Shown here in pieces: positions 1 to 18,705 of a DNA stretch of 50,830 nucleotides (within the stretch, counting starts at the first letter, position 1; every line of letters begins with the position of its first letter). A model generated the notes under the pieces. That model was not told the origin of the DNA and did not search any database. It worked only from the letters and a program-made list of their open reading frames with translations. The DNA comes from Gammaproteobacteria bacterium (GTDB lineage Bacteria; Gemmatimonadota; Gemmatimonadetes; Longimicrobiales; Gaopeijiaceae): assembly GCA_009840525.1 (NCBI GenBank), contig VXNP01000068.1, forward strand, positions 1 through 50,830, read 5' to 3'. The translations under genes were made by a program, and so were the position numbers.

Positions 1-2208
1 CATGATCTCCTTCACGCGCGACAGGTGGTTCCTGTATTCGGTGTTGCCAAGATTCGCGAGGTGGAGGGTCACGACGTGAAGCCGCCCGGCGAACGTGAGA
101 CGCACGCCGCCCGAGAGGCCGAAGACCGCGTATCCATCGGTTGGCTGCTCGAACTGCCCCGTCCGCTCCTGGTTCGAGGCCAATCGCGCCTCGGCCTCCA
201 CGAACCAGTCCACCGGCGAATAACCGATCGCAAGGCGACCCTGGAGCGGGGGCATGAACGGGAGGGGCTCGTTTGTGGCGCGGATCGTGCCGCGTATGTA
301 CGACGCGACGGCCTCCAGCTTGAGTCCGGCCGGCGTCGACCAACCGAGCAGGCTCTCGAACCCGGTCAGAACAGCGTCCTCGCCCACGTACTGGTAGATG
401 GGGAGCCGTATGCGGCTGAGTCTCCCCGTCGCCTGCGGAAAGATGTAGCCCTCGATCGTGTTTCGGAACCACGTCGCCTCCGCGCTCAGGCGTCGTCCCG
501 TGACACGCCCGAACACGTCGATTCCGAGTCCCGTTTCCGTCCCGAGCGAGGGATTGCCGACGTCGAATGAGTTGGCCGCGAGGTGCGGCCCCTCCGAGTA
601 GAGTTCGTTTACGTCGGGCGTGCGAAAGGCACGCGCCACGCTCGCTCCCAGGGTGAACTGCCCCGTCAATGGCAGAAGTGCGCCCAGAGAGCCGGACATC
701 GCGTCGAAGGAACGTGCGCGGATGTGCCCGATATCGGACAGCTCTTCCTCGTTCGGTTCCAGCTCGACCCGGTCGTAGCGGAGTCCGGCCTCGATCGACA
801 CCGGATCGAGCCGGATCTCCTCCATGACATACGCGGCCTGCGTCGTGCGCCGGGAATTCGGGGTGTACAGCGCGCCTCCGAATCCGAAGTACTCCCACGA
901 GACTCTCGCTCCCACGGCGCCCGATGCGAACGGCCCCCACGCGGCGTGCCGCGCCCGCGCCTCCCCGCTCGTGATCTGGCGCTCGAACAGCGTTCCCAGG
1001 ATGTCCGGGGGTTCCCACTCGTGGTGCCGGTACCACGTGTAGCCGGCATCGAGTTCAATCGCCTCCAGGCCTCCCCCAGGCCGGATGACGCTGCGAAATC
1101 GGCCGGCGGCCCGCTCCTGCTCCGTGCGCACCGCGTTCGTGTGGCCGCCGAGGAAGCCTCCGGGGATCCCGTAGTCGTTCGCGTAGAAGCGAAACGCACC
1201 GCCCGCATAGCCCCAGTCGTCCACCCACGATGTCCCGGCCGCCACGCCCCAGGTGTCGACCTGGGTTCCCTCCAGCCTCCCGATGGGCGTCCGCAGATCC
1301 CCTGCCTGATGCATCGATGCCTCGATGCGGAGCGGGATGTGCTCGGTGACTCCGACCGTCACCTGGCTGCTCCCTCCGATGCCGCGCGTGGCTCCCCGGC
1401 CGTTGAGCGAAGTGAAGCCGGTCGCCCGGTCAGGCGCCGCCCGGGGCACCTCGTCCCGAACCACGTTGATCACGCCGCCGAGGGCGTTGCTGCCGTAGAG
1501 GATCGCGCTCGGTCCGCGAATCACTTCGATCCGCCGAGCGGAGGAGGGGGGGGTCGCCGTGGCGTGGTCCGCGCCGCTGCTGAGGACGTCGCCCACCCGC
1601 TGGCCATCCTCGAGCACGAGGATCCTGTCTCCGCCCAGGCCGCGGATGACGGGCTGGGAGGTGCCCGGCCCCATGCTGGTCACGGCTACCCCCGGGACCG
1701 ATTCCACCGTCTGCGCGAGGGTGGCCGCCAGTTGCCGCTGCAGCTTCTCCCCCGCGAAGACGGCGGAAGGCCGGATCGTCTCGTTCGCGGCCGTGGGATT
1801 CAGGACCGCCGTGACGACAACGTCCGGCAAGGGGATGGCGGCTACCTCGAGGTCGACGGTGACCATCTCTCCCGGGCGGACATCGACGGCAACCGCCGCG
1901 TACCCGAGTCGATCGACCCGAAGCCGATACCGCTCGCCATCGGGCACGGCGATGCGGAACGACCCGTCGCCGTGCGTAACCGCGCTGCCGCCCGTGCTGA
2001 CAACCATCGCGGTCGCGCCCGCGAGAGGCATCCCGCCGTCTGCCGACCGGACAATTCCCACCAGGTGGTCGAGGGTGTCTGCGGCCTGCTGTTCGACAGG
2101 TGCAAAGGCCGCCGAGGGTGCCGGAACGCCTGCGAGGATCATCCCGAGGAGGAAAACGGGGACGGGAAAGCGTCTGTATATCGTTATGGAAATGCCGGGT
2201 GACGACAT
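1..2208 (-). CDS. TonB-dependent outer-membrane receptor, ZnuD-like (3' end cut by window edge)
   Basis: An outer-membrane gated channel, probably for a metal or metal chelate. The reading frame stays open from an ATG at 2208 to base 1 (736 codons); the last strands of the barrel lie outside. AGGAG sits 7 bases before the start. The protein has a signal peptide (about residues 1-36), a carboxypeptidase-like beta-sandwich (about 48-120) and a TonB plug containing VPGVAVTSMGPG, PVIRGLGGDRILVLEDG, SGADHA and IEVIRGPSAILYGSNALGGV. That plug wording, with its 'DHA' segment, is typical of the ZnuD zinc-receptor branch. A barrel follows. It lies 87 bases downstream of a small secreted protein and of a Fur/Zur-like palindrome at 2802-2823. 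Zinc as substrate is inferred from plug similarity and context; iron or copper remain possible. Confidence 0.88.
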   Translation of the reverse strand, partial: MSSPGISITIYRRFPVPVFLLGMILAGVPAPSAAFAPVEQQAADTLDHLVGIVRSADGGMPLAGATAMVVSTGGSAVTHGDGSFRIAVPDGERYRLRVDRLGYAAVAVDVRPGEMVTVDLEVAAIPLPDVVVTAVLNPTAANETIRPSAVFAGEKLQRQLAATLAQTVESVPGVAVTSMGPGTSQPVIRGLGGDRILVLEDGQRVGDVLSSGADHATATPPSSARRIEVIRGPSAILYGSNALGGVINVVRDEVPRAAPDRATGFTSLNGRGATRGIGGSSQVTVGVTEHIPLRIEASMHQAGDLRTPIGRLEGTQVDTWGVAAGTSWVDDWGYAGGAFRFYANDYGIPGGFLGGHTNAVRTEQERAAGRFRSVIRPGGGLEAIELDAGYTWYRHHEWEPPDILGTLFERQITSGEARARHAAWGPFASGAVGARVSWEYFGFGGALYTPNSRRTTQAAYVMEEIRLDPVSIEAGLRYDRVELEPNEEELSDIGHIRARSFDAMSGSLGALLPLTGQFTLGASVARAFRTPDVNELYSEGPHLAANSFDVGNPSLGTETGLGIDVFGRVTGRRLSAEATWFRNTIEGYIFPQATGRLSRIRLPIYQYVGEDAVLTGFESLLGWSTPAGLKLEAVASYIRGTIRATNEPLPFMPPLQGRLAIGYSPVDWFVEAEARLASNQERTGQFEQPTDGYAVFGLSGGVRLTFAGRLHVVTLHLANLGNTEYRNHLSRVKEIM

Positions 2209-2850: not shown

Positions 2851-3942
2851 TCAGCGGCCCGCTTGGCGGAGCGTCGCAGCCGCCTCTGAATTGCCGTCGA
2901 GTTCTGCTGCTTCCAGAGGCGTCCGACCGTCGTAGTCACGGACCGACACATCAGCGCCAGCCGCGAGCAGGACGTTCAGAATGTCGGTGTTCTCCGCATT
3001 CGCCGCCGAATGCAAGGGTGTCGCACCCCTTGCGTTCCTGGCGTTCAAGTGGGCTCCGGCCTGGATAAGCGCCGCGGCGACCTCGGGGCCACGGCCGAAA
3101 GACGCCGCGCTGTGCAGGGGTGTTGCGGACGTTGCCAACTCCCGGGCGTGCACGTCCGCCCCTGCTTCGATGAGGGCAAGAGCCATTTCGGGGTTGTCGT
3201 TGTTGGACAGCGCCCTCAGAAGAGGCGTATCTCCGTGCCCGTTCTCGACGTTCACGTCGGATCCCCCGCTTACGAGAGCCAACGCTACTTCGGGGTTCTC
3301 GTTGTTTGCCGCCGCCTGGTGGAGCGGTGCCTCGTCGAGGTAGCCCGCGCGAGTGTCGAGATCGGCGCCGGCCCGCATGAGAGCGAGGACCATTTCGGGG
3401 TTTTCGTTGGACCGCGCCGCGAGGGAAAGGGCTGTCGGTCCTCCGGGGTTCGCGGCGTTCACGTCCACTCCGGCGCGGACGAAGGTCAAGGCTACCTCCG
3501 GGTTCTCGTTGAACGCTGCCGCGCCGAGCAGGTGTCGGGTCTCGGCGCGTGCGCCGGCTCTTAGAAGGACGAGAGCCACTTCGGGATTCCCGTTGTACCG
3601 CGCAGCCATGTCCAGGGGTGCCCGATGCATGGCGGTTGTGCCGAAGTAGTTGTCCAGGGCGTCGATGTCGGCCCCGGCGTCGATAACCGCTTCCACCACA
3701 CCTGGGTGCTCGCTCCAGGCCGCAGCGAGATGAAGGGGAGTCAGACCGGCTGAATCCGGGACCATCGCGTCCGCGCCCGCCTGCAGGCAGACCCTCGTAT
3801 CGCCGGGAGTTGCCGACCTGAAGAAGGCTTCGGTATTCCAGGTTGCGCAATCGGGGGGCGCGCAAGCGGCCAGCAGGAACGCTGTCAGAATCAAGCGCTG
3901 CCTCAACCAGGTCGAAGGCAGGTTCGCGGGGATCACCAACAA
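2851..3942 (-). CDS. Ankyrin-repeat lipoprotein
   Basis: A 363-aa protein with a lipoprotein signal (LLAAC, Cys27) followed by about nine ankyrin units that fill the rest of the chain. Ankyrin repeats bind protein partners; here they would sit outside the cytoplasm on a lipid anchor. The units are unusual: the usual 'GH.EVV' turn is replaced by NENPE or close variants (NENPEVALTFVRAGV, NENPEMVLALMRAGA, NDNPEMALALIEAGA). The start is uncertain: TTG at 3942, TTG at 3939 or GTG at 3936 are all in frame and none has a strong ribosome site. It begins 24 bases after queE and looks like the last gene of the methyltransferase-queE operon. Partner unknown. Confidence 0.82.
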   Translation of the reverse strand: MLVIPANLPSTWLRQRLILTAFLLAACAPPDCATWNTEAFFRSATPGDTRVCLQAGADAMVPDSAGLTPLHLAAAWSEHPGVVEAVIDAGADIDALDNYFGTTAMHRAPLDMAARYNGNPEVALVLLRAGARAETRHLLGAAAFNENPEVALTFVRAGVDVNAANPGGPTALSLAARSNENPEMVLALMRAGADLDTRAGYLDEAPLHQAAANNENPEVALALVSGGSDVNVENGHGDTPLLRALSNNDNPEMALALIEAGADVHARELATSATPLHSAASFGRGPEVAAALIQAGAHLNARNARGATPLHSAANAENTDILNVLLAAGADVSVRDYDGRTPLEAAELDGNSEAAATLRQAGR

Positions 3943-9132: not shown

Positions 9133-10355
9133 AATCCGCCGCCGACCTTCGCGACCGCATCCGCGCCAGCGCCGGCGCCCTCGGCTTCGACCGGGTTCGC
9201 TTTACCACCCCGCACGCCAGCGGGCACATGGAGTTCTACCGGAGCTGGATCGAAGAGGGGGCCCACGGCGAGATGGGCTACCTTGCCCGCGAGGACTCCA
9301 TTGCGCGCAGGGGCGACCTCCGGCTCACCATGGCGGACGTGCGCTCGGTCGTGCTCGTGACCCACAACTACTACCAGCCCGATCCTCCCGGGCTCGCTAG
9401 GGACGGGCGGCGCGCGGTGATCGCCCGCTACGCGCGCGGGGACGACTACCACGATGTCATGAAGCGGCGCCTGGTGAAGCTGCTCGCGGAGATCGAGGGA
9501 GATGCCGGGCGCCGTGTCTCCGGGCGCGCCTATGTGGATACGGGCCCGATCCTGGAGCGCGAACTGGCGACGCGCGCGGGACTGGGATGGCTGGGGAAGA
9601 ACACGATGCTGATCGACCCGGGACGCGGCTCGTACTTCTTCCTGGGAGTCCTGCTCCTCGACCTCGAGCTGCCGGAGGACGAACCCTTCACCGAGGACCG
9701 GTGCGGGACCTGCCGGAGCTGCCTCGACGCGTGCCCCACCGGTGCCCTGCTGGGACGCGATGCGCAGGGGGCGCCGGTCATGGACGCCCGGCGCTGCATC
9801 TCCTATCTGACCATCGAGCACCGGGGGCCGATCCCGCGAGAGCTGAGGGCGCAGGTCGGCAACCGCATCTACGGCTGCGACATCTGCCAGGAAGTGTGTC
9901 CATGGAACGTGAAGTTCCAGACCCCGGCCACCGAGCCGGCGTACCGGGCGCGGCCCGAGTTGGACGGTCCCCTGCTGGTGGAGCTGGCCGAGCGTCTGCT
10001 CGCCATGGACGACGAAGCGTTCTCGCGCGCCTTCCGTGGCTCACCCGTCAAGCGGGCTCGGCGCAACGGCCTGCTGCGCAACGTCTGCGTGGGGCTCGGG
10101 AACCAGGGTGGTGAGGATGCGGTCGCCGTGCTGATCCGGGCGCTTCAGGACAAGGCCCCGCTGGTGCGGGGCCACGCGGCATGGGGGCTGGGGCGAATCC
10201 CGGAGTCGATCGAGGCGTCAGCCGCGCTGCGCGCGCGCATGAAAGTGGAGGATGACGCCTGGGTGCGCGAGGAAATCGCGCGGGCCCTGGAACAGGAGCT
10301 GCGGGCGGACCCTCAACCCGGAGCGCCGTCAGCTCAGCCGTTCGTCTCCGTGTAG
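9129..10355 (+). CDS. queG: Epoxyqueuosine reductase QueG
   Basis: Performs the last step of queuosine synthesis in tRNA, reducing epoxyqueuosine with a cobalamin and two 4Fe-4S clusters. The 408-aa chain has YVDTGPILERELA and GWLGKNTMLI in the cobalamin-binding domain, the first cluster motif Cys192-x2-Cys195-x2-Cys198-x3-Cys202 (followed by PTGAL) and the second set CDICQEVCPWN starting at Cys250, then a C-terminal HEAT-like stretch (about 315-395). It starts with GTG at 9129 overlapping the stop of the MazG-like gene. Its last 22 bases overlap the convergent gene at 10334-10849. Confidence 0.95.
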   Translation: MKSAADLRDRIRASAGALGFDRVRFTTPHASGHMEFYRSWIEEGAHGEMGYLAREDSIARRGDLRLTMADVRSVVLVTHNYYQPDPPGLARDGRRAVIARYARGDDYHDVMKRRLVKLLAEIEGDAGRRVSGRAYVDTGPILERELATRAGLGWLGKNTMLIDPGRGSYFFLGVLLLDLELPEDEPFTEDRCGTCRSCLDACPTGALLGRDAQGAPVMDARRCISYLTIEHRGPIPRELRAQVGNRIYGCDICQEVCPWNVKFQTPATEPAYRARPELDGPLLVELAERLLAMDDEAFSRAFRGSPVKRARRNGLLRNVCVGLGNQGGEDAVAVLIRALQDKAPLVRGHAAWGLGRIPESIEASAALRARMKVEDDAWVREEIARALEQELRADPQPGAPSAQPFVSV

Positions 10356-10849
10356 GCGGCGGCGAACTCCTCCACCTTGGCCGTGACCGCGGCTTCGAGA
10401 GCGGCCTGGGCATCGACGATCGCGGCGACCCCCAGCCCGGTGGCGAACCAGGTGACGGCCTCCGACAGCGTGATCTGGTTGTCGCGCGTCATCTGGGTCG
10501 ACTGGTGGACGCGCACCGCCACCGACCAGGCCAGCGCCCCCGTCACCGCCACGCCATCGCCGGGCGTGCACTCCAGGATGATGCGCAGCTCGGGAAGGCC
10601 GGGGTTGCGAAGCATCTCGCCCTGGGTCAGCAGCTCCACCTCTGCGGCCGCAAGGGTCGCCTCGGCCTGGACCCGCACCGATTCGTCGGTGATCCCGGCG
10701 CCCGCGCAGGCGGCCCCGGTCTGCGCGCTGACGAAGACGCCGCCCAGATCCTCCAGGGTATAGCGGTTCCACACCGTGTCCTGGGCGGCGCCTTCCACCG
10801 GGAGGCCGATCAGCCCGAGTACCATCGCGATCAACGCGTAACGCTTCAT
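10334..10849 (-). CDS. Secreted protein of unknown function (171 aa)
   Basis: Start set at the ATG at 10849, which has GGAG 7 bases upstream and gives a clean signal peptide (MKRYALIAMVLGLIGLPVEGAAQD). An upstream ATG at 10906 would bury the signal. The mature part has two cysteines (about residues 48 and 92), a repeated alpha/beta pattern and the segments TLEDLGGVFVSAQTGAAC, ELLTQGEMLRNPGLPELRI and ITLSEAVTWFATGLGV. I recognise the style as a recurrent small secreted family of this group but know no function. The 3' end overlaps queG by 22 bases, tail to tail. Confidence 0.78.
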   Translation of the reverse strand: MKRYALIAMVLGLIGLPVEGAAQDTVWNRYTLEDLGGVFVSAQTGAACAGAGITDESVRVQAEATLAAAEVELLTQGEMLRNPGLPELRIILECTPGDGVAVTGALAWSVAVRVHQSTQMTRDNQITLSEAVTWFATGLGVAAIVDAQAALEAAVTAKVEEFAAAYTETNG

Positions 10850-10905
10850 TCCGTGCTCCGTAAGCGGACGCTCGCCGACGTCCTCGGGTTCAGTTGGCCA
10901 AACCA

Positions 10906-10931
10906 AACCCCTCGCACAAGTACGAGGGGTT
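10906..10931 (-). terminator. Intrinsic terminator after the ankyrin gene
   Basis: A perfect 9-base-pair stem (AACCCCTCG and CGAGGGGTT, 10906-10914 and 10923-10931) with an 8-base loop starts 30 bases past the stop of the ankyrin gene at 10961. Read on the minus strand it is followed by TGGTTTGG, a weak T-rich tail. It would end the DUF1592-DUF1552-ankyrin operon and separate it from the small secreted gene that begins at 10849. Confidence 0.6.
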
Positions 10932-10960
10932 CGGCACCGGGCGGGAAGAGATCCCGTGCT

Positions 10961-12736
10961 TCAGCAGGATCTGCAGTTGTGGTTGTTCTTCGATCCCAGC
11001 TTCTCCAGCAGGGCGACGGTCGGAGGATGCGGCTGAGCCCGCTGCTCCGGGCTGTTGGCCATGTCGGCGACGGTATGGCCCCGCCGGCTGAGCAGCGTCA
11101 CGTCGGCGCCCCGCTCCACCAGGAACAGGATCGTCTCGTTGTCGCCCCGCGCGGCCGCGTGGTGGATGGGCGCGAACCCGTCCTTGTCGCGGATGTTGGG
11201 ATCGATGCCCACTTCGTCAACCAGGAAGCGCACCGCCGGCAGCCACCCATCGGGTACGTGCCGGTGCGTCTGCGCTACGCGTGAGGTGCCGAAGCCAACG
11301 CCCGAAGCGGCGTGCAGCGGATGGACCCCGAGTCCTCCGTGAGGCACGGGTTCAAGCCCGGACGGATCTTCTTCCGGTTCGCCGGGGCGCTGGAAGAAGA
11401 AGCGCCTGGGGTTGATCAGGTTGTACGTCCAGATGTTGGGGTCGGCCCCGTTGTCGAGCAGCAGCCTCATGGCTTGCACGTCGGCGGCGTAGGCGGCCCG
11501 CCAGAACGGGGTCGCGCCCGCGAAGTCCACGCCCATGCGGCCCGCGTTGTAGGCGGCGTACCAGATGTGGGTGGTGGTGCGCGCGTCAGGGTCGGCGCCC
11601 GCGTCGAGCAGCAACTGCATGAGCTCGAGGTAGTCGGTTTCCTGCTGGCGGAAGGCCTGTGGCTGGGGATACCAGGTGCGCAACGACCACTCGATGTTGA
11701 GCGCGGCGAACAGGGGGCCCGCGCCGTCGTCGCTCAGCAGGTTCGGGTCGGCCCCGGCCTCCAGCAGCGTCCTCGCCAGGTCGTAGTTTCCGTTGATGGT
11801 CGCGAGCAGCAGGGGCGACGACTGATCCGCGCTTGGCAGGTTGATGTCGGCACCGCCGTCAACCAGCACCCGCATGGCATCGGCGTGCCCGTTGCGGACC
11901 GCGTAGTGCAGCGGGGAGAACCCTCCCTGAATGCCGATCTGCTCGATGGACGAGAGTACCTTGGGGCCGTCTGGCGGGATCTCCGGTTCGTTCCCCTGAC
12001 CGGCACCGGCACCCGGAAAACCACCGCGTCCCTGGCCGGGCTGCTGGGCTCCCGGCTCCTCCTCGGGCTCCGGGTCCTTCTCCGCTTCGCGGATGCGCTG
12101 CCGGCGGGTCCGCTCTTCCCGGTCCGCAGCCTCGATCTCGGAGAAGTCGCGGGTGTCGCTGACCAGGTCGGGGTCGGCGCCGGCGTCGAGCAGCGCCTGC
12201 AGCGCCCCTGCGGAATTGCGCGCTGCGGCGAACATCGCGGGCGTGCGGCTGGAGTAGCCGTCGCGGACGTTCACGTCGGCACCGTGCCCGACCAGCGCAT
12301 TCACCACCTCGAGGGCGTCGGCCTCGGCGGCGAAGTGCAGGGACGCGGCGCCGGTTCCGGTCAGAATGTCCGGATTGGCGCCAGCGTCGAGAAGCGCCGC
12401 GACCACGTCGGCGTTGCCGGCCCGGCTCGCCAGGTGGAGGGGCGTGTAGCCGCCCACGCGGGTAGCCGGCTGCAGGGTGGCGCCCGCGAAGATGAGCGTC
12501 TCGACGATGTCGAGCTGGTCGTTCAGCGCCGACCAATGCAGCGCGGTCATTCCGTCGGGCTGCGCCGCGCTCGGATCCGCTCCCTGCCGGAGCAGATTGC
12601 GAATTTCCTCCGCCTCGCCCCGCTGCGCCGCATCAGCGACCGGGGACTCGTCGGGTGTGGCCGCGACCAGCACCAGGGCGCTGACCGCCAGCGTCCGCTT
12701 GAACCAGGGTGCGAAAGTTCGCTTTCCTGTCACCAT
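10961..12736 (-). CDS. Large secreted ankyrin-repeat protein (591 aa)
   Basis: Start at the ATG at 12736, with GAGGAG about 9 bases upstream. An N-terminal signal (KRTLAVSALVLVAATP) precedes ankyrin repeats of standard form (MTALHWSALNDQLDIVETLIFAGA, YTPLHLASRAGNADVVAALLDAGA) in two blocks. Between them, about residues 190-265, is a charged and then Pro/Gly/Gln-rich insert (REERTRRQRIREAEKDPEPE, QQPGQGRGGFPGAG). The chain ends in GSKNNHNCRSC. It probably binds a protein or scaffold in the periplasm or at the cell surface. It starts 22 bases after the DUF1552 gene and is the third gene of the DUF1592-DUF1552-ankyrin operon. Confidence 0.9.
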   Translation of the reverse strand: MVTGKRTFAPWFKRTLAVSALVLVAATPDESPVADAAQRGEAEEIRNLLRQGADPSAAQPDGMTALHWSALNDQLDIVETLIFAGATLQPATRVGGYTPLHLASRAGNADVVAALLDAGANPDILTGTGAASLHFAAEADALEVVNALVGHGADVNVRDGYSSRTPAMFAAARNSAGALQALLDAGADPDLVSDTRDFSEIEAADREERTRRQRIREAEKDPEPEEEPGAQQPGQGRGGFPGAGAGQGNEPEIPPDGPKVLSSIEQIGIQGGFSPLHYAVRNGHADAMRVLVDGGADINLPSADQSSPLLLATINGNYDLARTLLEAGADPNLLSDDGAGPLFAALNIEWSLRTWYPQPQAFRQQETDYLELMQLLLDAGADPDARTTTHIWYAAYNAGRMGVDFAGATPFWRAAYAADVQAMRLLLDNGADPNIWTYNLINPRRFFFQRPGEPEEDPSGLEPVPHGGLGVHPLHAASGVGFGTSRVAQTHRHVPDGWLPAVRFLVDEVGIDPNIRDKDGFAPIHHAAARGDNETILFLVERGADVTLLSRRGHTVADMANSPEQRAQPHPPTVALLEKLGSKNNHNCRSC

Positions 12737-12758
12737 TGTCCCACTCCTCGCAGCGTGC

Positions 12759-14147
12759 CTACACGGCAAAGGTGCCGGTGCTGTTGCCGAACGACTCGAG
12801 CTCGTTCAGGCCGAGCCGATGCAGCAGGTCGAGCATGACGTTCGCCATCGGGGTGCCCGGAGGCGCGACCACGTGCTGTTCGCCCTCCAGCAGTCCGTTC
12901 ATGCCGCCGACCATGAAGAGCGGGCAGCGGGCATGGTTGTGGATGTTGGGGTCGGCCATCGCCGATCCGTACATGATCATCGTCTTGTCGAGCAGGGTCG
13001 CGTCCCCGTCGTTGGTCGCCTGCAGCTTCTCGAGGAAGTACGGAAGCATGCCGACGTGATAGGTGTTGATCAGCGCGAAGTCGAGAATCCGCTCCTCACG
13101 TCCGCCGTGGTGGCTGCCCGCGTGGAAGGGCGTCGAGGAACCGCTCTCCGGAAAGATCCTCGGCGAAGCGTCCCGGCCCAGCTTGAACGAGAAGACCCGC
13201 GTGGTGTCGGAGGCGAAGGCGAGCAGCTGCAGGTCGAACATCACTTCCATGTGCTCGCGGAAATCATCCGGCACGCCCACGGGGGCCTCGGGGATCTCCC
13301 GCTCCTCTCCGCTCGTGTTCTGCATCTCGATGCGCGTGATGCGCTGTTCCAGGTCGCGGATGTTGTCGATGTAGCGGGAGACGCGCTGCTGGTCGGCCGG
13401 TCCCAGCTCACGCTTCAGGCTGGTGATCTCGTCCAGCATCCAGTCGAGGATGCTGCGGTCGGTGCGCAGGCGCTGGGCCCTCTGCTCCGGGGTTCCGCCG
13501 GCTCCGAAGAGCTGCTGGAAGACGGCGCGCGGATCGCGGATCATCGGCAGCGGCTCACTGGGAGACGCCCAGCTGACGGTATCGGTGTAGGCGCAGGCGT
13601 AGCCGTACGCGCAACCGCCCGCCTGGTCCACGTTCTCGATGGTGAGCTGGATCGACGGAATCGGGGTCTCCTGGCCGTAGCGCTGGACGAAGAGCTGGTC
13701 CATGGAGGTCCCGATATGCAGGTCGGAGCCCTGGGTCTGCTTCGGGTGCGCCTGGGTGAGGAACACCGCCGTGGTGCGGAAGTGGTCACCGCCGATTTCC
13801 TCGGGCGAGAACGCATCCGCCATGCGCGAGTCGGTGTTGGTCACGATCGTGAGATACTTCCGGAAGGGCTCGAGCGACCGCAGGCTGGTGGGGGAAAGGT
13901 CGAAATCCTTCCCCTCGGCGGCGGGGGCCCAGAGGTTCTGGGAGGCACCCCACTCGTTGCACCCGGCCGCGCCGTGCACCTGTTCGATGAAGACGAGCCG
14001 GGTGTCGTTGGCGGCCCGTCCCGCGGCGGTCGCCGACCACAATCTTCCCGCGGGAACCATGGCGTCGAGCAGCGGCAACCCGATGACGCCGCTCATGCTC
14101 CGCAACATCGTGCGCCTGGAGATGCTCTTTCCGGTGATGAAATTCAT
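12759..14147 (-). CDS. Tat-exported DUF1552 protein
   Basis: A 462-aa DUF1552 protein. The N-terminus has a twin-arginine signal (SRRTMLRSMSGVIGLPLLDAMVP). The body shows the family's marks: RLVFIEQVHGAAGCNEWG, GGDHFRTTAVFLTQAHPKQT, IGTSMDQLFVQRYG, PIPSIQLTIENVDQ, SILDWMLDEI, ITRIEMQN and HAGSHHGGREERI. DUF1552 has no established activity; the fold is related to sulfatase/phosphatase-like DUF1501 proteins. It lies 67 bases after the DUF1592-type gene and 22 bases before the ankyrin gene. DUF1552 and DUF1592 genes occur next to each other in many Planctomycetes, Acidobacteria and related genomes, so a shared periplasmic role is likely. Confidence 0.92.
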   Translation of the reverse strand: MNFITGKSISRRTMLRSMSGVIGLPLLDAMVPAGRLWSATAAGRAANDTRLVFIEQVHGAAGCNEWGASQNLWAPAAEGKDFDLSPTSLRSLEPFRKYLTIVTNTDSRMADAFSPEEIGGDHFRTTAVFLTQAHPKQTQGSDLHIGTSMDQLFVQRYGQETPIPSIQLTIENVDQAGGCAYGYACAYTDTVSWASPSEPLPMIRDPRAVFQQLFGAGGTPEQRAQRLRTDRSILDWMLDEITSLKRELGPADQQRVSRYIDNIRDLEQRITRIEMQNTSGEEREIPEAPVGVPDDFREHMEVMFDLQLLAFASDTTRVFSFKLGRDASPRIFPESGSSTPFHAGSHHGGREERILDFALINTYHVGMLPYFLEKLQATNDGDATLLDKTMIMYGSAMADPNIHNHARCPLFMVGGMNGLLEGEQHVVAPPGTPMANVMLDLLHRLGLNELESFGNSTGTFAV

Positions 14148-14214
14148 CGTTCAGACTCCGTTCGAAGTACAACTCTGCAAGGGCACCTGCTCATGCGGTG
14201 CTCGCGTAATCAAT

Positions 14215-16668
14215 TCAGTTTCCGGCCGGGGTGGCAATGGCTTCCGGCGCCACCAGCGACGAGCGGAAGGCCGGGCTCTCCACGACGCCCAGGACGAACG
14301 AGGAGAACCTGTAGTCGTTGTCCGCCGCCGCCGCCACGATCTTGCGCACGGTCGGCATGTCGTAGTACTCGACGCGCCGCCCGAGGCCGTACGCCATCAG
14401 GTTTTCGGTGAAGATGCGGTAGAACACCTCCGGGCGCTTCAGCAGCGCGTTGCGAAGGTCGGCCGGTCCCGTAAGCAGCGTACCGTCGTAAAGTTCTCCG
14501 GCCGGATCCACGGGATTCCCCTCGTCACGGATCCGCCAGGCGCCGGTCACGTCGAAGTTCTCGAGCGCCAGCCCGACGGGGTCGATGAGCTGGTGGCAGG
14601 ACATGCACACCGGGTTCGCGCGGTGGATTTCCATGCGCTCGCGCACGGTGAGGAAGCGGCCGTCGTCCGCGCCCTCGGTCTCCTCGAAGGCGGGCACGTC
14701 CGGGGGCGGCGGTGGCGGCGGGGTTCCCAGCAGGACCTCCAGCACCCACTTGCCGCGCAGCACCGGCGAGGTGCGGTCGGCGTGCGAGGTCATGGTCAGC
14801 ACGCTGCCGTGGCCGAGGATGCCGCGCCGGTTCTCGTCGGGGTACTGCACCCTGCGGAACTCCGGGCCCGTAACGCCGGGGATGCCGTAGTGACGCGCCA
14901 GCCGCTCGTTGACGAAGGTGTAGTCCGCGGTCAGCAGCTCGCGAACCGGCCGATCCTCGATGGCCATGTTCGCGAACAGCAGTTCGGTCTCGCGGTGCAT
15001 CGCGTCCGCGAGGGTCCCGTCGAAATACGGATACGAGAGCGCGTCCGGATCGATCTTCTCCAGATCCTGAAGCCTCAGCCACTGGGCGCCGAAGCGCCGG
15101 GCGAGCCCTTCCGCCGCGCGCCCGTCGGCGAGCATGCGTCGCGCGTGCCGCAGGAGCCCGTCGGGGTCGGACAACTCGCCCCTTTCCGCCGCGGCGATGA
15201 GCGGCTGGTCGGGGGGCGCTCCCCACAGGAAGAAGGAGAGCCGCGAGGCCAGGTCCGCGTCGGCGATGGAATACGGGGTTCCGGCGGTGGCGCCGGGGGC
15301 CCGCTCCATGCGGAAGAGGAAGTGCGGGCTGGCCAGAATCGCCTGCAGCGCAAGCTGCACACCGCCCTCGAATCCGCGCTCATCCGCGCCCTGGTCGTAG
15401 AAGGCCATCAGCCCTTCCACGTCGAATTCGTCGACCGGGCGCCGGTAGGCCTTGGTGGCGAGGCGGGAAACGATGTCACGCGCGCAGGGGCGGGCTTCCT
15501 CGGGCGAGGTTGGGCGGCACGAGAAGATGAGCTGCCGCGTGGGCGTGTCGGACACGCCGGTCACTTCGTAGGGGCCCAGGACCGAGAGCCGCTGCAGGTG
15601 CGGCATGGTGGTCACGCCGTAGCCGATGCCGATCTGGCCGTCCGCCAGGGTGTGGTCGATGGGGCGGATGAGGTCGTCCAGTTCGCCCTCGAACCGCTTC
15701 AGGAAGGCGGCGGTCACGCGGCGCGGACCTGCGCGCACGTAGATCGAGTCGGTGAGGACGTTCAGCCCGGTCGGCTCCGACTCCGACATCCAGCGGTCGA
15801 TGGTCACCAGCGCCACCCGCTGGCCGTCGAGCGACACCTCCATCTGCTCGTTGCCGAAGGTGCGCCCGAAGACCTCGCCCTCCACCGCAGGGTAGGGCTG
15901 GATGTGGAAGACGTACTTGCCGTCGGCCGGGAAGTTGTGAATCACTGATACGCCGCCCCGGGTGCCGAAGGGCGCACCCTCCACGCGGTCCTTCTGGGAG
16001 GTGGTGCGCGGCAGCCGGTAGCGGATCGAGTTCGGTTCCGCGTCGGGGTCGCCCACCGCCACCCGGCTGATGTAGTTGGCGGCCCTGAGGTAGCCCTCCA
16101 TCAGGGTGGCCGAGGGAGCCTGCACGTCCGCGATGTTGTCGAAGTTGGCGCTGCGGGTATCGAGCGGGAGGAACTCCCCGACATCGACCTGGAGACCAAG
16201 CAGGTCCTCGACGGCGCTGGCGAACTCGGCGCGGTTGAGTCGCTGGAAGGTGCGGAATCCGGGATTGGGGTTCTGCTCCCAGGCCGCGTCCACCCGGGTT
16301 TCGAGTTCCGCGGCCAGGGCCTGGAGGGTATCTCCGGCGGGCCTCGGGAATCCCTGCGGGGGCATCATGCCCGCGCGCAGCTTGCGGATCATCCGCTCCG
16401 CGATTTCCGCCATTTCCGGAGCCGACTCCACCTCGAACGCCTGGAACGAGATGTTGCCGGTCATGAGGGCGTCGTTGTGGCACACCTGGCAGTACATGCG
16501 GATGACGCCGGTAAGCGACGCGGCGTGCTCGGGATTGCCGACGGCCGTAGTCGCCGAAGCCGCAACGGACGCCGTCTCGATGGGTGCGGCCGGCACGGGC
16601 TCGACGGGTCGATCCGCAAGGACGAGAAGCAGTCCGAGCGTGGTGAGCGCGGCGGGAACAGGATTCAT
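14215..16668 (-). CDS. DUF1587/1595/1592/1588/1585 cytochrome-type protein
   Basis: An 817-aa secreted protein of the planctomycete-type multi-DUF family. Start at ATG 16668, with GAGG 6 bases upstream and a signal peptide (PAALTTLGLLLVLADRP). A heme c site, Cys60-x2-Cys63-His64 (MYCQVCHND), opens the protein. The usual chain of domains follows: DUF1587 (RLNRAEFASAVEDLLGL), DUF1595, DUF1592 (SRLSFFLWGAPPD), DUF1588 with a second C-x-x-C-H at 688-692 (VCMSCHQLIDPVGLALENFD) and DUF1585 (NLMAYGLGRRVEYYD). Function is not established; the heme sites imply electron transfer or oxidation of a substrate outside the cytoplasm. First gene of the operon ending at 10961. Confidence 0.93.
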   Translation of the reverse strand: MNPVPAALTTLGLLLVLADRPVEPVPAAPIETASVAASATTAVGNPEHAASLTGVIRMYCQVCHNDALMTGNISFQAFEVESAPEMAEIAERMIRKLRAGMMPPQGFPRPAGDTLQALAAELETRVDAAWEQNPNPGFRTFQRLNRAEFASAVEDLLGLQVDVGEFLPLDTRSANFDNIADVQAPSATLMEGYLRAANYISRVAVGDPDAEPNSIRYRLPRTTSQKDRVEGAPFGTRGGVSVIHNFPADGKYVFHIQPYPAVEGEVFGRTFGNEQMEVSLDGQRVALVTIDRWMSESEPTGLNVLTDSIYVRAGPRRVTAAFLKRFEGELDDLIRPIDHTLADGQIGIGYGVTTMPHLQRLSVLGPYEVTGVSDTPTRQLIFSCRPTSPEEARPCARDIVSRLATKAYRRPVDEFDVEGLMAFYDQGADERGFEGGVQLALQAILASPHFLFRMERAPGATAGTPYSIADADLASRLSFFLWGAPPDQPLIAAAERGELSDPDGLLRHARRMLADGRAAEGLARRFGAQWLRLQDLEKIDPDALSYPYFDGTLADAMHRETELLFANMAIEDRPVRELLTADYTFVNERLARHYGIPGVTGPEFRRVQYPDENRRGILGHGSVLTMTSHADRTSPVLRGKWVLEVLLGTPPPPPPPDVPAFEETEGADDGRFLTVRERMEIHRANPVCMSCHQLIDPVGLALENFDVTGAWRIRDEGNPVDPAGELYDGTLLTGPADLRNALLKRPEVFYRIFTENLMAYGLGRRVEYYDMPTVRKIVAAAADNDYRFSSFVLGVVESPAFRSSLVAPEAIATPAGN

Positions 16669-16760
16669 GCTGGCCTCACGCTGCTGTATACCGTGGGAGC
16701 GGCGGTGCGGGGGCCCCACAAGCCATTTGCTCGCCCCGGCTTTTGCCTCAAGCTCAAAGA

Positions 16761-16766: not shown

Positions 16767-16885
16767 AGAATAGCTTTCGCTTATCGGACACGCCAGAGGC
16801 GTTGAGCGCTGAACCCAAGGGGTTCATGGGCCCGGAAGCCGGGCTCGAAACCCGGATCGTTCCCCGCAACCACTTCAGGGACCCG

Positions 16886-17446
16886 ATGACACTGTATCCT
16901 GCGATCGTGCAGATGCTCGGCGGAGCCTCCGTCGCCGGGGCGGCGGCCTCCCTGGCGCTCCTGGCGGGCCTTTTCATGCCGGGAAGCCGCGCCTGGCTGC
17001 GCGCCTCGCTCGATGGCTACGAACGCCATGTCGTCGGCTGGGCCTGGGGCATCGCCGCCATCGCGACGGCCGGCAGCCTCTACTTCTCCGAAATCGTCGG
17101 CTTCGTGCCGTGTCCGTTCTGCTGGTATCAGAGGTTTGCCATGTACCCGCTGGTGGTGGTGCTCGGGGTGGGGCTCCTGCGGCCCTCTGCGAGGATCTGG
17201 CGGTTCGCCATTCCACTCCCCGTGGCCGGTCTGGCCATCGCCGCCTACCACGTCGCGCTCCAGTTCCAGCCCACGCTCGATCTGGTTCCCTGCGAGGGCG
17301 GGGTGCCCTGCTCCGGGCGCTACGTTGCCGTCTTCGGGTACATCTCCATTCCCGCCATGGCGGGCGCGGCCTTTCTGATGATCACCGCGCTACTGCTGCT
17401 GCTTTGGCGGCTGGAGAGGGATTCCGGTCCGGACGAGGAGGTCTAA
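16886..17446 (+). CDS. DsbB/BdbC-type disulfide bond formation protein
   Basis: A 186-aa inner-membrane protein with four or five hydrophobic segments that would reoxidise a periplasmic thiol oxidase and pass electrons to quinone. The key motif Cys76-Pro-Phe-Cys79-Trp-Tyr-Gln-Arg (CPFCWYQR) is intact and a second pair, Cys136 and Cys142 (VPCEGGVPCSG), lies in the second periplasmic loop. The start is set at ATG 16886 (AGGGA 5 bases upstream); an ATG at 16826 is in frame but adds a hydrophilic tail. No DsbA-like partner is adjacent. It ends by overlapping the convergent epimerase gene by 4 bases. Confidence 0.88.
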   Translation: MTLYPAIVQMLGGASVAGAAASLALLAGLFMPGSRAWLRASLDGYERHVVGWAWGIAAIATAGSLYFSEIVGFVPCPFCWYQRFAMYPLVVVLGVGLLRPSARIWRFAIPLPVAGLAIAAYHVALQFQPTLDLVPCEGGVPCSGRYVAVFGYISIPAMAGAAFLMITALLLLLWRLERDSGPDEEV

Positions 17447-18600
17447 CCCCGCGCGCGCCCGCTTCGGTGCCAGGCCGCCAGCACCTCCGCTTCCTGTTCC
17501 GGGGTGGTGCCGGCGCGCAGGTTCGCCTGGCGCTCGGCCGGCCGGGAGAAGTGGTACTCCAGGGTATCGCGGGCCGTCTCGGCGAGAGGACGGAAGATGA
17601 GCCCGGCCTCCACCTCCGGCGTCAGGTCGAAGCGCGCGAAGCCCTCGAATCCGGGGACCGGCGGCCGCCACACGGGCATCTCGCGGTACGGGCGCATTCC
17701 CCTCTCGATGAGGAAGTCCGTGTCGACCCAGGTGAACGTCGTCTCCGCCGTGGTCACCGCCCGAATGCCGTACAGCAGCTCCGTCATGGGCCGCGGCGTG
17801 GCCGGCCCGATGCCGTTGTACTCACCGGTGTGGCCGGTCTCGGCCATGCGGATCATCCATTCGGTGAGGTCGCGCACGTCGATGATCTGGACGGTGTCGG
17901 AGCCGTCGCCCGGGGCCAGCACTTCGCCGCCCCGGTGGATGCGCACCGGCCAGTAGGTGAAGCGGTCGGTCTCGTCCTGCGGGCCGATGATGAGACCCGG
18001 GCGCACGATGTTGGCCCGACCTGCGAAAATCCGCTGCGCCTCCCGCTCCGAGAGCGCCTTGGCGAGACCGTAGGGAAGGTTCTCCGAGCCCGGTTCGATG
18101 CCCGCGGTCTCGTAGGTGAACGTCGGAGCATCGGAGGTCATCGGCACGCTGCTCAGATCCGAATACGCGGAGCGCGACGATACGTAGAAATACCTGTCCA
18201 CCGAGTCGCGCAGGAACTCGGCGGCGAGGCGCACCCAGTCGGGATTGGAGCGCGAGTTGTCGATGACCACGTCCCAGGTGTGGCCCCGGAGAGCGTCCAG
18301 CTGGCCGTTGCGGTCGCCGATCAGCGTCTCGACGTCGGGGAACATCCCCGGATTGGAGCGCCCGCGGTTGAAGAGCGTGACCGAGTGGCCGCGGGACAGG
18401 GCGTAGCGCACCTGGAAGGGCCCGATGAAGCCGGTGCCTCCGAGGATCAGGATGCGCAGCGCGCGCGGCGCCTCCTGTGGCGATGCGGGTCCGCGGGCCG
18501 GGCCCGGATGCGGCAGCCCGGCGCCGGGCACGGCGCCCAGCCCCAGCGCTGCTCCCGCCGCCGCGGACATCTTCAGGAACTCTCGTCGATCGGCAGGCAT
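17443..18600 (-). CDS. Tat-exported NAD-dependent epimerase/dehydratase family protein
   Basis: A 385-aa SDR-fold protein with a twin-arginine signal (DRREFLKMSAAAGAALG) at the N-terminus. The NAD-binding GGTGFIG is at 54-60 and a YxxxK active-site pattern is present (LPYGLAKALSE); FYVSSRSAYSD gives the catalytic Ser. Such exported epimerase-like proteins must receive their cofactor in the cytoplasm before export by Tat. Start at ATG 18600, preceded by GGAGGAG. Substrate unknown, probably a sugar or sugar nucleotide derivative. Convergent with the DsbB-like gene (4-base overlap) and divergent from the efflux pump gene. Confidence 0.88.
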   Translation of the reverse strand: MPADRREFLKMSAAAGAALGLGAVPGAGLPHPGPARGPASPQEAPRALRILILGGTGFIGPFQVRYALSRGHSVTLFNRGRSNPGMFPDVETLIGDRNGQLDALRGHTWDVVIDNSRSNPDWVRLAAEFLRDSVDRYFYVSSRSAYSDLSSVPMTSDAPTFTYETAGIEPGSENLPYGLAKALSEREAQRIFAGRANIVRPGLIIGPQDETDRFTYWPVRIHRGGEVLAPGDGSDTVQIIDVRDLTEWMIRMAETGHTGEYNGIGPATPRPMTELLYGIRAVTTAETTFTWVDTDFLIERGMRPYREMPVWRPPVPGFEGFARFDLTPEVEAGLIFRPLAETARDTLEYHFSRPAERQANLRAGTTPEQEAEVLAAWHRSGRARG

Positions 18601-18705
18601 GACTTGCTCCTCCATGCGGGATCGGCTCCACGGCGACGCCCCGCCGGGAACTGGCCGCTTGCACGTGGTGGCCTAACTTTGGTCGAGCCCCCGTACCCTA
18701 ACCAC

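Follow-up and report, generated by a model that had tools for sequence, protein, structure and literature searches.

The window, by which we mean the whole 50,830-nucleotide stretch analysed (contig VXNP01000068.1), contains three packed genes on one strand (Table 1) that encode an exported di-haem cytochrome (CYT), a DUF1552 protein (HX) and a secreted ankyrin-repeat protein (ANK). The open reading frames are confirmed, with gaps of 67 nt (CYT–HX) and 22 nt (HX–ANK), in keeping with the operon-like unit of the original prediction, and Pfam agrees with its assignment of the three genes to a haem DUF1592 protein, a DUF1552 protein and an ankyrin protein. A longer start for CYT is possible at a GTG at position 16719; read from the ATG start, the n-region of the window protein carries no positive charge. 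The cassette was also expected to be closed by a hairpin terminator. The hairpin itself is strong (folding z = -3.4), and a terminator at this position is plausible rather than canonical because a scan requiring a T-run found no site. The export signals behind the proposed periplasmic location (signal peptides and a Tat motif) are present, and the location itself is predicted from these signals. Comparison of the window with two near relatives gave dN/dS values of 0.05–0.13 for CYT, HX and ANK, all of which are under purifying selection.

Table 1. Features of the cassette in the window (nucleotide positions unless stated otherwise).
Feature	Position	Strand	Basis
CYT, exported di-haem cytochrome, 817 aa	14215–16668	(-)	ORF, Pfam, invariant haem residues, AlphaFold model and VIA-align
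CYT parts, in order: haem 1; PSD3; beta-sandwich; PSD5; PSD4; PSCyt3 with haem 2; PSD2	Residues: haem 1, CQVCH 60–64; beta-sandwich, about 210–370; haem 2, CMSCH 688–692		
HX, Tat-exported DUF1552 (HXXSHH) protein, 462 aa	12759–14147	(-)	Pfam, alignments, model and fold search
ANK, secreted ankyrin-repeat protein, 591 aa	10961–12736	(-)	Pfam, family alignment, tail motif
Strong hairpin, 15 pairs, 3' of ANK; transcription probably ends here, though no clean U-run is present	10902–10935	(-)	

CYT matches the Pfam families DUF1587, 1595, 1592, 1588 and 1585, with the domains in the order PSD3-PSD5-PSD4-PSCyt3-PSD2. All five domains, together with a CxxCH site in PSCyt3, are found in one exported protein in 28 of 28 members. 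The two CxxCH sites noted at the outset are both invariant across the 28 homologues, and none of 5000 shuffles of the CYT protein yields two. This invariance and the presence of cytochrome c assembly genes in the host genome make CYT a putative c-type cytochrome with covalently bound haem. The invariant Met 102, within a GMMPP motif, is a candidate axial ligand of haem 1. His 682, which is conserved in 21 of 23 distant relatives, is a candidate second ligand of haem 2, near which there is no invariant Met. The pair Cys 384/Cys 395 is also invariant. Haem 2 is kept in all 23 distant relatives and haem 1 in 18; short relatives have lost both haem 1 and the beta-sandwich.

The beta-sandwich was recognized in the AlphaFold model of CYT (pLDDT 79). 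Its best VIA-align matches are to carbohydrate-binding modules of families CBM36, CBM35 and CBM6 (Z of 9.3–8.0, the best being 9.3 over 106 residues), values that barely exceed the level of common beta-sandwiches, and a sequence search matched no CBM family. The domain is thus predicted to be a beta-sandwich most like CBM6/35/36. A Foldseek search with the whole model returned nothing significant, leaving the helical DUF1595-1592-1588-1585 part so far without a structural counterpart; sequence searches found no solved structure for CYT or HX.

The combination of DUF1587 with a CBM-like domain raises the question of whether CYT donates electrons to a lytic polysaccharide monooxygenase (LPMO), as the CjX183 domain of Cbp2D does in Cellvibrio japonicus. 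According to the accessible text of PMC8981238, Cbp2D is likewise an exported multidomain protein with two CxxCH domains, DUF1587 and carbohydrate binding, and its X183 cytochrome serves as a reductant of LPMOs in vitro. However, Cbp2D has a different cytochrome module, without sequence match to CYT (a CYT profile search did not recover CjX183), and contains a YceI-like domain; that text describes neither a DUF1552 gene nor an ankyrin gene with it. The host genome gave no match to LPMO_10 (AA10), the one LPMO family searched, and a donor role of this kind would leave DUF1552 and the ankyrin protein without a function. We therefore regard it as very unlikely.

HX is a clear member of DUF1552 (273 bits). 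Its N-terminus carries a twin-arginine motif, SRRTMLR, followed by a hydrophobic stretch; R11 and R12 are invariant in 48 homologues, the TAT_signal profile matches 27 of these 48 weakly and a TatC gene is present in the host genome, all of which bears out the proposed export by the Tat route. The conserved residues comprise H342-xx-S345-H346-H347, H403, D150 and H122. The model of HX is of middling confidence (pLDDT 71, pTM 0.79) and is weakest around H122, D142, C179 and C185. Foldseek relates it to the alkaline-phosphatase/NPP/sulfatase superfamily with E values down to 3.9e-5, and the best VIA-align match has a Z of 15.7 (246 residues aligned, rmsd 3.6). There were 475 chains at Z >= 8 and, among the matches listed, all belong to the alkaline-phosphatase superfamily. 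HX is accordingly predicted to have an alkaline-phosphatase/sulfatase-type fold. It resembles the superfamily in this predicted fold (Z 14–15.7) and in a His/Asp-rich site, and differs from it in its low identity (about 10%), its Tat export, its tie to a cytochrome, its lack of a formylglycine motif and in offering candidate catalytic residues only. The model revealed neither a complete alkaline-phosphatase metal set nor a nucleophile; it is weak at several candidate positions and did not permit superposition.

On balance we favour a catalytic role for HX. By its active-site motif HX does not group with the formylglycine (S1) sulfatases: [CS]-x-P-x-R is absent from the window protein and is scattered and unconserved in 48 relatives. 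An ordinary ester-removing sulfatase or phosphoesterase, with the cytochrome serving as a carrier or redox sensor and taking no direct catalytic part, would be consistent with the predicted fold and the conserved His/Asp set. Besides the unconserved formylglycine motif, this explanation has to contend with the finding that, among the 150 genomes, every one with HX also has the cytochrome, and we consider it rather unlikely.

ANK is an ankyrin solenoid, as judged by its Pfam repeats and by profile matches to solved ankyrin chains. Its C-terminal tail carries the motif NN[HND]xCxxC in 86 of 86 complete relatives from named genomes, and the cysteine-pair tail is a clear marker. In the window protein the tail reads NNHNCRSC and holds the only two cysteines; exactly two cysteines are present in 69 of 87 relatives. 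The motif is missing from two paralogues of the same genome (L058 and L059), whose tails still have a cysteine pair at a wider spacing.

The host genome (3.99 Mb, 98% complete, Gemmatimonadota) contains 12 PSD2 domains, 12 DUF1552 genes and 12 full-length ANK relatives, and these are distributed over twelve cassettes, each with one CYT, one HX and one ANK. The usual order is CYT-HX-ANK; one cassette (L060) is arranged HX-ANK-CYT, and in another (L059) CYT and HX are separated by a SusC/SusD pair. The paralogue distances correlate between the three genes (CYT–HX, r = 0.69; HX–ANK, r = 0.77; CYT–ANK, r = 0.47), from which it appears that the cassettes moved for the most part as intact units. With the two most divergent ones excluded, the CYT–ANK correlation falls to r = 0.23, which is indistinguishable from chance, while that of HX–ANK stays at 0.54. 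This difference hints that HX is the closer partner of ANK.

The same association is seen across the phylum. A lack of conservation of the ankyrin gene with the other two had been named beforehand as a result that would refute the original prediction, which withstood this test. In addition to its presence in all twelve host cassettes, ANK occurs in 55 of 150 Gemmatimonadota genomes, exactly the 55 that have DUF1552 and PSD2, and all three families are absent from the other 95; their joint absence is seen even inside genera (g25 and g46). We also examined the 79 nearest DUF1552 loci in named genomes, which are mostly labelled Gemmatimonadota, many of them from sponges, and which hold 101 DUF1552 genes, 100 of them testable. 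Gene neighbours and order are conserved among these loci. ANK lies directly downstream of DUF1552 in 98 of the 100 genes, and of the two exceptions one (L096) is an artefact of start calling. CYT lies directly upstream in 94; the other six show the order HX-ANK-other-CYT or a contig end. CYT, HX and ANK are thus inherited, lost and multiplied together, and the observations support ANK as an obligate partner within Gemmatimonadota cassettes. Four of the records (L064, L065, L068 and L111) have MAG titles, Gammaproteobacteria or Euryarchaeota, that clash with near-identical or closely related Gemmatimonadota cassettes and are probably mislabelled.

The nearest genomes to the host, a bacterium of sponge-symbiont type, are sponge MAGs. 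The trio is also found in records from groundwater and in Bacterium HR33, which we take to be a hot-spring bin. This distribution bears on the suggestion that ANK is a eukaryote-like repeat protein used by a sponge symbiont for host interaction, its place beside a cytochrome being incidental. Ankyrin genes show enrichment in sponge-associated Gemmatimonadota and have been interpreted in this way in sponge and coral studies (PMC8163846), one of which takes ankyrin genes above 0.2% of genes to indicate an animal-associated lifestyle (PMC9868349). However, the host genome shows 16 ankyrin genes, of which 12 are full-length members of the cassette family, the trio extends to the non-sponge records above and ANK agrees in presence or absence with both other genes in all 150 genomes. 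We consider host interaction exceedingly unlikely as the role of ANK. With an inherited unit carried twelve times, most ankyrin genes of the host genome would be parts of a periplasmic redox system, with no necessary role in host manipulation. Ankyrin content as a marker of lifestyle is confounded in Gemmatimonadota, since cassette members make up three quarters of those seen in the host genome and non-sponge relatives have them too; ankyrin gene counts in the phylum are to that extent inflated.

Outside the phylum the set is looser. In a sample of 119 genomes from the phylum to which L141 (record title Vicinamibacterales) belongs, 18 had DUF1552. Among 20 longer stretches from outside Gemmatimonadota, 11 have an ankyrin gene adjoining the CYT–HX pair; its position varies and the cysteine tail is lacking. 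A Novosphingobium plasmid carries all three genes and a Planctomyces plasmid carries the CYT–HX pair without ankyrin. On Sphingobium plasmids a short one-haem cytochrome and DUF1552 run with cytochrome c' and cytochrome b561, with a TonB receptor nearby. Since no ankyrin gene adjoins the pair at some Acidobacteriota, Planctomyces and Sphingobium loci, ANK is not required everywhere, and because haem 1, the beta-sandwich and the ankyrin protein are each missing from some members, the core appears to be the haem-2 module plus DUF1552. No relative was found in phage genomes.

SusC/SusD genes adjoin five of the twelve host cassettes, in one case (C21) as a single-strand run SusC-SusD-HX-ANK-CYT. 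The window cassette has none beside it, only 10 of the 79 related loci have them nearby, and the association, judged from adjacency counts, is suggestive only. Other neighbours recur. A WD40-like/amidohydrolase fusion lies between ANK and CYT in cassettes of the order HX-ANK-CYT (L117, 11390–14764 (-), and relatives), and a Sortilin/VPS10-like beta-propeller protein is a recurrent neighbour at seven loci (for example L053, 1380–4718 (-), and L116, 3923–7111 (+)).

Taken together, these observations make it almost certain that CYT, HX and ANK work together, and it is likely that they form a physical complex. The best reading, to which we assign a probability of roughly 0.5, is a periplasmic electron-transfer and catabolic complex that acts on imported carbohydrate-like substrates; that the trio breaks down a carbohydrate, or a similar polymer or oligomer, by redox catabolism is put forward tentatively, at slightly less than even odds. 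In such a complex, ANK would hold HX and, less tightly, CYT. A carbohydrate-like ligand, entering for part of the cassettes through the neighbouring SusC/SusD importer, would be captured by the CBM6/35/36-like domain of CYT. HX, folded before its export by Tat, would be a metal-dependent enzyme of the alkaline-phosphatase/sulfatase fold that acts on the captured ligand by hydrolysis or by new redox chemistry. Electrons from the breakdown might then pass from haem 2, which is universal, by way of haem 1, a putative electron-transfer haem with Met/His ligation, into the respiratory chain. The Cys-x-x-Cys at the C-terminus of ANK could bind metal or exchange disulfides with a partner, and the many paralogous cassettes may correspond to many substrates. 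A further-reaching proposal is that DUF1552 is the first example of a branch of the alkaline-phosphatase/sulfatase fold that is coupled to redox chemistry, being a metalloenzyme dependent on a dedicated di-haem, glycan-binding cytochrome and held by an ankyrin protein whose terminal Cys-x-x-Cys gives a metal or thiol function; it would represent a new oxidative polymer breakdown in Gemmatimonadota, Acidobacteriota and some Proteobacteria. We regard this as speculative and unlikely.

A different function for a periplasmic ankyrin protein encoded beside a haem enzyme is known from Pseudomonas aeruginosa, in which AnkB is needed for full activity of the catalase KatB (as cited in the accessible portions of PMC2830190 and PMC3091734). 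By analogy, the cassette could be a peroxide-detoxifying set in which the ankyrin protein stabilizes or activates the haem enzyme, and haem 2, with no invariant Met nearby, might be an open, reactive haem. KatB, however, is a catalase and not a c-type cytochrome, and those portions describe no DUF1552 partner; no catalase or peroxidase family was matched in the cassette, and nutrient use is a better fit to the diverged copies (up to 12), the CBM-like domain and the SusC/SusD neighbours. Detoxification of peroxide consequently has a low probability in our judgement. CjX183 and AnkB–KatB are offered as functional parallels, with no kinship implied.

The closest precedent for the carbohydrate-directed complex comes from Verrucomicrobia, in which, as far as the consulted part of PMC5615132 (2017) goes, PSCyt3/PSD2-5 genes with the same domain set likewise adjoin one uncharacterized family of no known function. 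Some of these genes include carbohydrate-binding modules, and a role in carbohydrate metabolism was suggested; planctomycete-specific cytochrome genes were found to correlate inversely with glycoside hydrolases. That part of the account names no ankyrin partner and no fold for the neighbour, whereas here the genes form a three-gene cassette in 12 copies. The description of the set as undescribed therefore has to be narrowed: the pairing of PSCyt3 with a neighbour was already reported, and the ankyrin member, the cysteine tail, the strict co-occurrence and the DUF1552 fold assignment found no report in the limited open-access literature searched. In the same literature no function was recorded for any of the families, as originally stated; DUF1592 and DUF1552 were never named together, and mentions of one alone gave no function. 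New here are the predicted DUF1552 fold, the predicted CYT beta-sandwich, the universality of haem 2, the ANK tail and the SusC/SusD adjacency of some cassettes. Three uncharacterized gene families become one testable unit, in which DUF1552 gains a predicted fold and a candidate site, and its cytochrome a predicted ligand-binding domain.

Several other genes in the window are recorded here. A DsbB-family disulfide-formation gene (16781–17446 (+)) is divergent from the cassette and lies just upstream of it, and conserved cysteine pairs occur in proteins of the cassette; the gene is treated as incidental because it is absent among the recurrent neighbours of the cassettes. It is followed by a gene for a twin-arginine-exported NAD-dependent epimerase-like protein (17443–18615 (-)), a location that is unusual for the family. 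A second ankyrin gene of another type (2851–3942 (-); 363 aa) stands outside any cassette. Directly 3' of the hairpin, a gene at 10334–10906 (-) encodes a secreted 190-aa protein that has no family match and is conserved in nine loci.
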